DNA of 64,000 bases. Origin: Candidatus Obscuribacterales bacterium (GTDB lineage: Bacteria; Cyanobacteriota; Vampirovibrionia; Obscuribacterales; Obscuribacteraceae). The notes under the pieces are model-generated. The model was not told the DNA's origin, did no database searches, and saw only the letters and a list, made by a program, of their open reading frames with translations. The stretch's first letter is position 1; each line of letters starts with the position of its first letter. Location: contig JAIETZ010000005.1 in NCBI GenBank assembly GCA_019744775.1, positions 62,001 through 126,000 on the forward strand, written 5' to 3'. The position numbers were made by a program, and so were the translations under genes. Shown here one piece after another: positions 45,414 through 52,739 of the stretch.

Positions 45414-45442
45414 TAACTCTAATTTGAATTAGAAGTTATAAT
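45414..45442 (+). promoter_or_regulatory. dyad operator overlapping a -10 box
   Basis: ATAACTCTAATT and AATTAGAAGTTAT form a 12-bp inverted repeat (one bulged A) around TG. It runs into TATAAT (45437-45442), a perfect -10 box for the plus-strand aldehyde dehydrogenase gene, and covers where the -35 box would be. A repressor or activator site is likely. Confidence 0.55.
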
Positions 45443-45452
45443 TGTTGGGTTC

Positions 45453-45475
45453 GTAGGGGCGCATGTAATGCGCCC
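45453..45475 (+). repeat. REP-like hairpin repeat, copy 8
   Basis: GTAGG followed by GGCGCATGTAATGCGCCC: the loop is GTA rather than TGC, with both arms intact. It lies between the dyad and the aldehyde dehydrogenase start. Confidence 0.88.
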
Positions 45476-45503
45476 GTGCAGCGATAACCAGCAGGGCAGG
45501 GCG

Positions 45504-48681: not shown

Positions 48682-49629
48682 ATGGAAATGAAACGACTCG
48701 GCGACTCGGATTTGAAAGTGTCACCGCTCATGTTTGGTGGCAATGTTTTCGGCTGGACAGCCAATGAGGCAATGTCCTTCAGATTGCTTGATGCTTGGGT
48801 CGATGCCGGTTTCAATTTTATAGACACAGCAGATTACTACTCGAGATTTGCTCCAGGCAATGTCGGTGGTGAATCGGAGACCATTCTTGGTAAATGGCTT
48901 AATCGCAACGGCAATAGAGACAAAGTGGTAATTGCCACCAAAGTAGGCATGGAAATGGGTCCAGGCAAAGAAGGACTATCCAAGCCTTACATAATGCGTG
49001 CAGTTGAAGATTCCTTGCACCGTCTAAATATTGATCACATCGATCTTTATCAATCGCACAAAGACGATCTGGAAACACCACTGGATGAAACACTGGAAGC
49101 ATTTGGTGAATTAGTAAAACACGGCAAAGTGCGTTATATCGGTGGTTCCAACTACACACCGGAGCGTTTGAAGCTTGCGCTCAAGTTAAGCAAAGAACAT
49201 GGCTATCCGAAATTCCAGACTCTACAACCACTCTACAATCTCTACGATCGCTCTCAATATGAAGGCGAGCTTGAATCTGTCTGCGTTGAAAATGGACTCG
49301 GCGTCATCAGCTACTACTCACTTGGAGCAGGATTTCTCGTCGGCAAATATCGAGACAAGCAAAGCGTCGATAAAAGCGCCAGGAAAATTCGCATTGAAAA
49401 ATATTGGAACGAGCGCGGCTGGAAAATCTTAAAAGCATTGGATGATGTCGCCGCCAACCTAAATTCTACGCCAGGCAAAGTAGCGCTTGCCTGGGTGTTG
49501 GCACGACAAAGTATCACAGCACCTATTGTCAGTGCCACAAATCTAACCCAACTAAATGATCTGTTTGAAGCTACTTCGCTCACACTGGACAATGAGACAA
49601 TGCAAACTCTAAACCAAGCCAGCGCCTAA
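48682..49629 (+). CDS. aldo/keto reductase
   Basis: NAD(P)H-dependent reduction of aldehydes or ketones. Seen: 315 residues, TIM-barrel, with FIDTADYYSRF (catalytic Asp and Tyr), VVIATKVG (Lys), HIDLYQSHKDD (His) and the C-terminal cofactor loop VSATNLTQLNDL. The HKDD variant of the His box fits YghZ/Tas-like groups. GGAGAATTACC before ATG 48682 is a good ribosome site. Substrate unknown. Confidence 0.92.
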   Translation: MEMKRLGDSDLKVSPLMFGGNVFGWTANEAMSFRLLDAWVDAGFNFIDTADYYSRFAPGNVGGESETILGKWLNRNGNRDKVVIATKVGMEMGPGKEGLSKPYIMRAVEDSLHRLNIDHIDLYQSHKDDLETPLDETLEAFGELVKHGKVRYIGGSNYTPERLKLALKLSKEHGYPKFQTLQPLYNLYDRSQYEGELESVCVENGLGVISYYSLGAGFLVGKYRDKQSVDKSARKIRIEKYWNERGWKILKALDDVAANLNSTPGKVALAWVLARQSITAPIVSATNLTQLNDLFEATSLTLDNETMQTLNQASA

Positions 49630-49676
49630 ATTCACTTTCCAATTGCTATGTTGGAAATGACCGTATTATGGTGGAA

Positions 49677-49811
49677 ATGCGGGCTAATACAGCCAAGGAC
49701 AGACTCCCAACTGCTCCTTGGCTTATCTCCCAAAGACAGCGGTGCAACGCCCCAAGCGCTCCCAACACCTCGCGCCTCTCCTTTTGGAATAGCCCGACCT
49801 CTGTAAAACAG
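49677..49811 (+). ncRNA. candidate structured RNA with three CTCCCAA motifs
   Basis: The gap between the aldo/keto reductase and the MFS gene folds by eye into a three-way junction. P1 pairs 49680-49686 with 49790-49796 (CGGGCTA/TAGCCCG). P2 pairs 49691-49699 with 49715-49723 (AGCCAAGGA/TCCTTGGCT), with a 3-bp inner stem. P3 pairs GGTG (49741-49744) with CACC (49766-49769). CTCCCAA occurs three times in unpaired sites (49704-49710, 49727-49733, 49759-49765). A TATTAT (49664-49669) would start transcription close to P1. A weak hairpin (49825-49840) follows. The minus strand, with five GGA motifs, cannot be excluded. Not a family I recognise. Confidence 0.45.
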
Positions 49812-49840
49812 CCCATAAGTCCTGTCTTACGCAAGTAAGA

Positions 49841-51388
49841 TTAGTGAGCGGCCGTCTCCCCCAAATGGGACGGCCGTTTCAGTATGAAGACTGTGGCAAA
49901 GCAAAGCGCAATGGTAATTCCCATAACTAGAAACGCTTCGTTAAAAGCCATAACAAAAGACTCTTTACGCACAATGCTGTCGATAAGTCTCAGCGCCTGG
50001 TCATATGCCGTTGCCGCATCCGCACCTCGAGTAAGGAACATCTGCGTTAATTGATTTAACCTATCTTGCACTTGCGGTGCTGCCAGCGAAATGGATTCAC
50101 CAATACGTGACGAATGGAAGTGTTCTCTTTGAGTAAGGAATGTTGAGATAAGGGCAATTCCAATTGAGCCGCCGAGGTTGCGCATCATGTTGAATAGAGC
50201 GGAAGCTGAACCTACCTGTTCAATTTCAATGCCGCCGGTAGTTATTGTCGAAAGCGGAACCATAATTAGAGGTTGACCAATAGCTCGAACAAGCAACGAA
50301 GCAATTAATTGGGGACCTGCATGATCGTGAGTCATAAAAGCATTCATCAACGAGCTTATCGCAAATAGGAGTAAGCCGGAGCCAAGCAATAAACGAGGAT
50401 CAAAACGTTTCATCAAGATAGGCACCAATGGAATAATGAGTAGTTGCGGCAACCCCATCCAGACAAGAACTTGTCCTATCTGCAAAGAGTCATAGTTTTG
50501 AATTTGTGTTAAATAAACAGGCAATAGATACACAGACCCATAAAGACCAAACCCAAGTATTACATTTGCCACGCTGCCGATTCCAAAATTGCGTCGAGCA
50601 AGCAATCTCAAGTTGACTAATGGTTGTTTAGTTCGTAGCTCATGTATTAGAAATACAGTCAACGACACGGCAGCAATTACAGCTAGTTTCACTATCAATT
50701 CGGAACCGAACCAGTCTTTGCGATTGCCTTCCTCAAGAACAATCTCCAACGCACCTAGACCTAGAGCCATGCTGGCAATACCAAGCCAATCACCACGCTT
50801 CAGCTCGCTGAATTGTATTGCCTCTTTTGGCAAAGCCCAAAGAAGTATAGCTACCAGTATTGCTCCTGGAATTATGTTGAGATAGAAAATATACTGCCAG
50901 CTAAAAGTATCTGTTAGCCAGCCGCCAATGGCAGGTCCGATTGAAGGAGCAAAAGTTGCCGTCACGGAAAATATAGCCATGCCTACTGGACGTTTGCTCA
51001 AAGGCAAACTAGTCAAAATAATATTCAAGGCCATAGGAATTAGTGTGCCGCCTGTAAATCCTTGCAGCGCTCTAAACATAATCATTGAATTGAGATCCCA
51101 TGCCCAAGCGCAGCACACTGAAAAGAGTATGAATAGACAAGCATTAGTTATTACGTATAAACGCGTTGAAAATATCCGAGACAACCACGGCGTCAAGGGA
51201 ATAGTTATAACTTCGGCAACCAAGTACGAAGTGGCTATCCACGTACCCTCATCCAAGGTTGCACCCAGCGTGCCTTGAATATTTGCCAATGATGAATTGA
51301 CAATTTGAATATCCAATACAGCCATAAATGCGCCGAGGGCAGCACCTAAAACGGCGAACCAGCTCTTAAGTGGGACATGATCTTCCAT
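49841..51388 (-). CDS. MFS drug/proton antiporter, EmrB/QacA (DHA2) family
   Basis: Seen from ATG 51388: 515 residues, about 14 membrane segments. Motif DIQIVNSSLANIQGTLG in helix 1, RALQGFTGGTLIPMALNI, and motif C-like GPAIGGWLTD. These are DHA2 features. It follows the HlyD/EmrA gene with a 13-base gap, and a TetR gene is divergent: a tripartite EmrAB-type pump that needs an outer membrane channel, not encoded here. Substrates unknown. I prefer 51388 over an upstream TTG at 51427, which would overlap the previous gene. Confidence 0.92.
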   Translation of the reverse strand: MEDHVPLKSWFAVLGAALGAFMAVLDIQIVNSSLANIQGTLGATLDEGTWIATSYLVAEVITIPLTPWLSRIFSTRLYVITNACLFILFSVCCAWAWDLNSMIMFRALQGFTGGTLIPMALNIILTSLPLSKRPVGMAIFSVTATFAPSIGPAIGGWLTDTFSWQYIFYLNIIPGAILVAILLWALPKEAIQFSELKRGDWLGIASMALGLGALEIVLEEGNRKDWFGSELIVKLAVIAAVSLTVFLIHELRTKQPLVNLRLLARRNFGIGSVANVILGFGLYGSVYLLPVYLTQIQNYDSLQIGQVLVWMGLPQLLIIPLVPILMKRFDPRLLLGSGLLLFAISSLMNAFMTHDHAGPQLIASLLVRAIGQPLIMVPLSTITTGGIEIEQVGSASALFNMMRNLGGSIGIALISTFLTQREHFHSSRIGESISLAAPQVQDRLNQLTQMFLTRGADAATAYDQALRLIDSIVRKESFVMAFNEAFLVMGITIALCFATVFILKRPSHLGETAAH

Positions 51389-51401
51389 AATGCCACGTCC
51401 T

Positions 51402-52739
51402 CTAACGTACTTTGACGCTAGCAACAACCGACATTCCGGGGACTATCAGATTTTCAAAGCCTTGCAAACTGTCTCTCTTGAAGCGCACTTTCACAGGCAC
51501 TCTCTGGACAATTTTTGTGAAATTGCCAGTGGCGTTATCCGGTGGCAGCAAAGCAAACGTCGCACCCGAGCCAGGAGCAATACTGTCGACAACGCCTTCA
51601 AATTTCTTGTGCGGGAAAGAATCGACCTTAATCTCAACAGATTCACCAGGACGCAATTTCTCAAGCTGAGTCTCTTTGAAGTTGGCAACAAGCCATACAT
51701 CATCAGAGACCACAGTCATCAACTGTTGACCAGGCTGTACTCTCTGACCGGCTTCCACTGTTTTTCTGCCGACTCGACCATTTGTCGGTGAAACAATCCT
51801 TGTATAAGACAATTGCAACTGCGCGTCCGCTAGTTTTGCATTGGCCTCGGAAGTTGCCGATTGAGCAACTGCAAACTGACTTTCATTCACAGCTGTTTGC
51901 ACGTGACTTGCTTTTGCCTGTTGCAATAAACCACCTGATTGCAAAATTTGCGCACGAGCTGAATTAACTGCATGCTCTGCTTCAGCTAATCGACTGCCTG
52001 TTTGACGCACTGCTTCCCTAGCGGCTTCTCTCGATGCTTTTGCTACCTCATAGTCTCGCACCGCTGCATCTCGATCGTGCAGAGAAACTGCGCCTTCATT
52101 GGCAAGCATGACAAATCTTTTGTAATCGGCTTCAGCGCGCACAACTTCTGCAGCTTTTGCGCTGTATTGAGCTTCAGCCTCTTTTATCGCCGCTCTGGCT
52201 GTTCCAACTGCCTGTTGTGATTGACTTAGCAAAGCTTTAGCACTATCTATCTGACCTTGAGCTTCTGTGGTTTTACCACCGGCAGAAATACTGGCAAGAG
52301 AGATGGCGCTTTGAGCTGCTTGCGCATTGTGCTCAGCAGTTTCAAGTGACGCCTGAGCTTGTTTGACTCGTACCTCAAAATCTTTCGGATCGAGAATCAC
52401 CAAAGGCTGTCCGGCAACAACGTGCTCATTGTCATCAACAAGTACTCTTTCGACGGTGCCGTTTATCCGGCTGCTTATTTGGTGCAAATGACCTGTTGTG
52501 TAGGCATCGTCGGTTTGCTCATAGGTGAGAAAATAATTGACTGAGTTATAACCAACCACAAGTAGCGTAAGACTTGCAACCAAAATGACGGAACCAATCA
52601 ACTTAGTTTTGGCAGAAAAACGACTGGCAATGGTGGACTTTCCCTCAGTTTGTTCAACCGGAGGCAGAAGACGGCAAAAGGCGCCAGCTTCCTTTGCTGT
52701 CTCCTTTTCCTTCATATATTTAAGTTCTGCCGGTGACAT
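51402..52739 (-). CDS. HlyD/EmrA-type membrane fusion protein
   Basis: Periplasmic adaptor of an efflux pump. Seen: 445 residues. A cytoplasmic N-terminus, one membrane segment at about 48-70 (SVILVASLTLLVVGYNSVNYF), a biotinyl-lipoyl-like half-motif (DDNEHVVAGQPLVILD), a long Ala/Gln-rich coiled-coil hairpin at about 130-320, the second half (GQRVQPGQQLMTVVSD) and a barrel domain with GSGATFALLPPDNATGNF, typical of EmrA. Gene order EmrA then EmrB, on the minus strand. Confidence 0.93.
   Translation of the reverse strand: MSPAELKYMKEKETAKEAGAFCRLLPPVEQTEGKSTIASRFSAKTKLIGSVILVASLTLLVVGYNSVNYFLTYEQTDDAYTTGHLHQISSRINGTVERVLVDDNEHVVAGQPLVILDPKDFEVRVKQAQASLETAEHNAQAAQSAISLASISAGGKTTEAQGQIDSAKALLSQSQQAVGTARAAIKEAEAQYSAKAAEVVRAEADYKRFVMLANEGAVSLHDRDAAVRDYEVAKASREAAREAVRQTGSRLAEAEHAVNSARAQILQSGGLLQQAKASHVQTAVNESQFAVAQSATSEANAKLADAQLQLSYTRIVSPTNGRVGRKTVEAGQRVQPGQQLMTVVSDDVWLVANFKETQLEKLRPGESVEIKVDSFPHKKFEGVVDSIAPGSGATFALLPPDNATGNFTKIVQRVPVKVRFKRDSLQGFENLIVPGMSVVASVKVR

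Follow-up and report, generated by a model that had tools for sequence, protein, structure and literature searches.

What occupies the gap between the aldo/keto reductase (AKR) gene and the MFS efflux gene in the genome of an uncultured member of Candidatus Obscuribacterales, a group of non-photosynthetic relatives of cyanobacteria? The window, i.e. the whole 64,000-nucleotide (nt) stretch analysed, is G000:C5:62001-126000, where G000 designates this 4.1-Mb genome. An earlier note, made from the letters of the stretch, had proposed a structured small RNA (sRNA) at positions 49677-49811, read rightward from a promoter just in front of its closing stem. This proposal finds strong support in conservation and in promoter comparison. 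Judged by sequence comparison, the locus holds a genuine small-RNA gene, read from the + strand, that had not been catalogued before and is specific to its genus. Comparison of related genomes establishes its conservation, its promoter, its independence from neighbouring genes and its non-coding nature; its transcription and termination are predicted.

Extent, conservation and distribution

The conserved block is present in G000 and in two congeners, G001 and G002, whatever the downstream gene, with a single copy per genome. Its core (49677-49797) is identical at 120/121 positions in the G000/G001 comparison; for G000/G002 the figure is 111/121, with 7 gap columns in addition. Fourfold-degenerate sites of nearby genes display 62-74% identity for G000/G001 (MFS gene and a gene encoding 95 amino acids (aa)) and 39-47% for G000/G002 (AKR and 95-aa genes). 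The AKR gene was excluded as a yardstick for G000/G001 because the G001 copy is more distant than its neighbours and an exchange is suspected. It shows 80% aa identity and 46% identity at fourfold sites with the G000 gene, as compared with 93-95% aa identity for the neighbours; this suggests recombination or exchange of the G001 AKR gene alone.

The interval first proposed contains the core, but its end at 49811 does not hold, as a conserved hairpin further 3′ belongs to the element as well. This hairpin is identical at 33-34 of 34 positions across the three genomes, with 33/34 for each of G000/G001 and G000/G002. In G000 and G001 it shares sequence with the MFS stop region: its antisense encodes the C-terminus of the MFS protein (49841-49879, - strand), and its conservation in these two genomes may therefore be partly due to coding. 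Both the RNA and the hairpin are still present in G002, which has no MFS gene.

The MFS gene is convergent with the RNA in G000 and G001, and G000 has no co-directional gene downstream. The MFS gene is absent from G002, where other, unrelated genes follow the RNA at a distance. A riboswitch or leader element, which would call for a co-directional gene downstream, was rejected on these grounds. The G002 counterpart of the MFS region (L003:2208-3252) has other genes, including a predicted AbiE-type toxin-antitoxin-like pair. In the window, a HlyD-type gene and a divergent TetR gene are situated upstream of the MFS gene.

Rfam searches (4227 models) gave no match up to E = 10 in 49400-50100 and none above gathering score in the window. 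A covariance model (R1) built from the three sequences matched only the three congeners among 50 family genomes, and no credible further genome was found among 386 genomes of the phylum; a weak 20-bit match in G424 was rejected, as it is without the second hairpin (P2). Distant relatives may be missed, because the filters used for large batches are strict and the model derives from three near-identical sequences. In a family-wide search, the three-copy CTCCCAA pattern described below was found at the same locus in the two congeners; a three-copy occurrence in G057 is an unrelated tandem repeat and was set aside. A scan of public genome contigs with the pattern yielded only the G001 and G002 records (JAKFVJ010000264.1, SBAT01000236.1). 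Matches of 26.6 bits in three related viral contigs are considered chance, because they lie within a 775-aa open frame and the fold has a z-score of -0.7. Phage and plasmid collections gave no match to the RNA, and AKR homologues in other genera have no recognisable RNA behind them. The open-access literature searched contained no small-RNA paper naming Obscuribacter, and among open-access papers combining Melainabacteria and sRNA there is, by their titles, apparently none on the sRNAs of that group.

Promoter and putative operator

The RNA is preceded by a -10 box and by a palindrome, a putative operator, which overlaps the -35 region (Table 1). This promoter/operator can be written TTCCAATTGCNNTGTTGGAA-N10-TANNNT. 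Further sites in the G000 genome are at G000:C3:444975 and G000:C5:218910; about half of the genera are without it. A collection of TTCCAA-N8-TTGGAA palindromes from this and other genera, made without requiring a -10 box, has 16 sites, including the three copies that precede this RNA. In 16/16 of them NANNNT follows the palindrome at a distance of exactly 10 base pairs (bp); at other offsets (0 to 17) it does so in 0-4 of 16. Although the pattern left position 7 of the palindrome free, T stands there in 28/28 exact sites; at position 8, T is found in 21/28. With one mismatch or less allowed, palindrome plus register gives ~75 sites in 21/50 family genomes, vs 1 for a reversed-pattern control.

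The earlier note had chosen TATTAT (49664-49669) as the -10 box. TATGGT is preferred, as its register is the one found at every site of this promoter type. The claim that the RNA starts close to the closing stem is upheld: the predicted start near 49679 is one base ahead of it. Judged on sequence, the transcript would thus be freestanding in the manner of trans-acting sRNAs, with a promoter of its own in the 16/16 register and independence from the downstream gene.

Genes behind the same promoter encode FecR-domain secreted proteins, pilus-like membrane proteins (identified from sequence only) and a conserved protein of 67 aa without a match in Pfam. Because of these gene products, an envelope-related regulon is plausible. 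The position of the palindrome over the -35 region suggests repression; activation is also possible. In other genera, no C-rich analogue with three CTCCC motifs was found downstream of this promoter.

Fold and C-rich motifs

The + strand of 49677-49811 folds as a three-way junction, as the earlier note had described, with an energy of -43.4 kcal/mol vs -28.7 +/- 3.1 for shuffled sequences (z = -4.67). When the 3′ hairpin is included (49677-49890), z is -5.06 in G000. The G002 sequence gives z = -5.60, and pairing in the third stem (P3) is better in G002 than in G000.

Table 1. Features of the small-RNA locus (positions in the window)
Feature	Position	Strand	Basis or remark
Small-RNA gene, ~201 nt	49679-49879	+	start predicted 7 nt after -10, end predicted from 3′ hairpin
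Palindrome TTCCAATTGCTATGTTGGAA, putative operator, centre near -32, overlaps -35	49637-49656	+	conserved in G001 and G002
-35-like TTGCTA inside palindrome	49643-49648	+	18 bp before -10
-10 box TATGGT	49667-49672	+	register common to promoter type
P1 closing stem, 5′ arm CGGGCTA	49680-49686	+	fold; invariant in three genomes
P1 closing stem, 3′ arm TAGCCCG	49790-49796	+	fold; invariant in three genomes
P2 hairpin, 12 bp, one bulge	49691-49723	+	fold; invariant in three genomes
Motif 1 CTCCCAA, P2 loop, exposed	49704-49710	+	unpaired probability 1.0 in three species
CTCCCAA copy 2, largely in P3 stem	49727-49733	+	ATTCCAAA in G002; not conserved; partly paired
P3 stem with internal loops; arms CCAAAG (49730-49735) and CTTTTGG (49781-49787)	49730-49787	+	fold
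Exposed C-rich segment CCCAAGCGCTCCCAA, includes motif 3 (49759-49765)	49751-49765	+	invariant
3′ hairpin GAGCGGCCGTCTCCCCCAAATGGGACGGCCGTTT, probable transcript end, weak T tail	49846-49879	+	conserved in three genomes
Aldo/keto reductase (AKR) gene	48682-49629	+	PF00248, E = 7e-70
MFS efflux gene	49841-51427	-	PF07690

CTCCCAA occurs at 49704, 49727 and 49759, and all three copies had been described as unpaired. This is correct for copy 1, in the P2 loop, and copy 3, in the P3 internal loop (unpaired probability ~0.7-1.0 in three species); only these two combine conservation with an unpaired state across the three species. It does not apply to copy 2, previously taken as an open linker, which reaches into P3 with its CCCAA and has unpaired probabilities of mostly ~0.2-0.7. 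The loop of the 3′ hairpin provides a further C-rich loop, CCCCCAAA, outside of the interval of the earlier note. The conserved unpaired C-rich sites in the three species are the two CUCCCAA motifs and this 3′ loop. Heptamers repeated three times within 62 nt number 3 cases in the real window vs 0.45 per shuffled window (maximum 2, 40 shuffles). By itself, the triple CTCCCAA is therefore only mildly unusual.

Probable pairing in trans and its alternatives

The balance tips modestly towards a freestanding sRNA gene of ~200 nt, with a regulated promoter, whose C-rich motifs pair in trans with mRNAs. The RNA's own promoter, its fold, the exposed C-rich motifs and the non-coding nature together give the anatomy that, in well-studied bacteria, goes with trans-acting sRNAs in which redundant C-rich seeds block ribosome-binding sites. 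Transcription would begin at ~49679, from a promoter whose -35 region is overlapped by the palindromic operator common to envelope-type genes of the family, and would end at the GC-rich hairpin 49846-49879. The three-way junction would expose C-rich single strands in the P2 loop and the P3 internal loop, with another in the 3′ hairpin loop, and these redundant motifs may pair with G-rich stretches of a limited number of mRNAs, probably close to the ribosome-binding site. A divergent Hfq-like protein perhaps assists the pairing; both the pairing in trans and the involvement of Hfq are presumed. The genome encodes such a protein, of 75 aa (PF21979, 7e-17; L070:1447-1674, with G000:C4:251625-251744 matched). 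Its gene adjoins an MreB-like gene, and Hfq matches, mostly weak, are found in 32/50 family genomes.

Possible targets were sought in 464 kb (400 kb of stretches plus the window), about 1/10 of the genome, with 371 starts, crudely predicted by taking the first ATG in each long frame. The starts in this sample carry AGGAG/GGAGA-type Shine-Dalgarno sequences. Duplexes of the P2 loop and of the 3′ loop are better at starts than in coding sequence by ~1.7-1.8 standard deviations of shuffled loops, and P3 loop duplexes give no signal at starts.

Several observations weigh against the reading of a trans-pairing sRNA. The RNA was not found outside the genus. TTGGGAG, the exact complement of CTCCCAA, is present at 0/371 predicted starts in the 464 kb, and loop-to-start duplex energies surpass those of shuffled loops by at most ~1.8 standard deviations. 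The top target candidate, an aldehyde dehydrogenase leader at 45440, was rejected, as it is not conserved in G001/G002. The 3′ hairpin, which has a short T tail (TTT), was not called by a terminator scan. Covariation across relatives, the check proposed in the earlier note, gives no signal, as no more than three sequences are known and their stems hardly vary.

The leader of the aldehyde dehydrogenase gene has a repeat-like segment at 45455-45480 (GTAGGGGCG...CGCCC) that differs in the congeners; GTAGGGGCG is present 26 times in the 464 kb.

There is no support for a generic role in blocking Shine-Dalgarno sequences, and the target tests neither supported nor refuted pairing. Of the regulatory sRNA acting on Shine-Dalgarno sequences that was first proposed, the structured sRNA stands, and the action on these sequences is conjecture.

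A possible, although not likely, alternative is that the RNA binds protein, as a scaffold or decoy, with a rigid junction that shows its C-rich strands to a protein and not to mRNAs. The near-invariance of both stems and loops leaves room for such a role: the stems are frozen like the loops, beyond the needs of simple antisense pairing, and the target search gave no signal. However, no candidate partner protein is known. The RNA resembles 6S RNA (RF00013) in its similar length and in a closing stem near the 5′ end, but it differs in having no Rfam match, and 6S RNA was rejected because there is no covariance-model match at the locus and a separate 6S-like candidate is present elsewhere in the genome (G000:C9:4236-4442, L130). 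That candidate has E = 7e-5, below the Rfam gathering score, is found in 9/13 relatives and is possibly the divergent 6S RNA of this order. More doubtful is the view that this genus-specific, frozen RNA belongs, as its RNA component, to an envelope-related regulon not described before, with the TTCCAATTGCNNTGTTGGAA-N10-TANNNT promoter as its hallmark; there it may be a protein-binding scaffold and not an antisense RNA.

It is quite unlikely that the RNA is a processed 3′ part of the AKR mRNA and not a gene of its own. It is located ~50 nt behind the AKR gene on the same strand in 3/3 genomes (G000, G001 and G002); however, a promoter lies between the gene and the RNA, in a register common to unrelated genes family-wide. 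A DNA-level element, i.e. a protein-binding or recombination site with no RNA function, is very improbable. The primary sequence is strongly conserved and the gene content to the right differs in G002, but the promoter points inward, stem/loop boundaries are consistent, the fold z-scores are -4.7 to -5.6 and there is one copy per genome.

Two further readings are scarcely credible. The opposite strand does carry, downstream of the MFS stop codon, the five GGA motifs for which a CsrA-sequestering RNA had been suggested, but that role is not supported: a search for CsrA that was positive in G004, a relative from the family, and in control genomes gave nothing in the three element-bearing genomes G000, G001 and G002. 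In addition, the fold of the minus strand is less striking (z = -2.75) and the element is kept without the MFS gene. A short protein-coding gene could be a 56-aa or 52-aa frame on the + strand or a 62-aa frame on the - strand, all open in G000, with the 56-aa frame open in G001 as well; in G002, however, the 56-aa frame is without its ATG and is interrupted by a stop codon once six codons have been read. Indels of 2, 4 and 1 nt also shift the frame there, and together with the early stop they argue against a peptide.

The reading as a trans-acting sRNA can be compared with known examples. NfeR1/alpha-r14 of rhizobia is a trans-acting sRNA with its own regulated promoter, in which identical C-rich anti-Shine-Dalgarno motifs are repeated unpaired in hairpins (PMC10746234). 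The RNA described here is similar in its repeated, unpaired C-rich motifs and its own regulated promoter. NfeR1, however, is built of three separate hairpins that carry CCUCCUCCC, and its stems are highly variable (PMC10746234), whereas this RNA, from a different phylum, has a junction, CUCCCAA and near-invariant stems. In the placement of its motifs, LhrC of Listeria is the nearest analogue (PMC4132741). LhrC is multicopy, with two stem loops, and acts on lapB independently of Hfq (PMC4132741), whereas a junction and no apparent sequence relationship are found here. Yfr1 of cyanobacteria has an ultraconserved unpaired C-rich motif, ACUCCUCACAC, which pairs mostly at translation initiation regions (PMC2190773, PMC6974561). 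The likeness is that of a C-rich unpaired motif in an sRNA of a related lineage, a single motif in the case of Yfr1. Yfr1 is 54-69 nt long with two stem-loops (PMC2190773, PMC6974561), in contrast to ~200 nt, another motif and one genus here. Membership in the NfeR1/alpha-r14, LhrC and Yfr1 families was rejected: there is no match among the 4227 Rfam models, whose coverage of each of these three families was not checked, and the described motifs and architecture set the RNA apart. The best reading is that it may work like NfeR1 or LhrC, yet is unrelated to either.

One genome thus combines a conserved sRNA, its defined and regulated promoter and a protein resembling Hfq, which offers a concrete entry point, and the promoter motif reveals a putative family-wide regulon that is open to testing.
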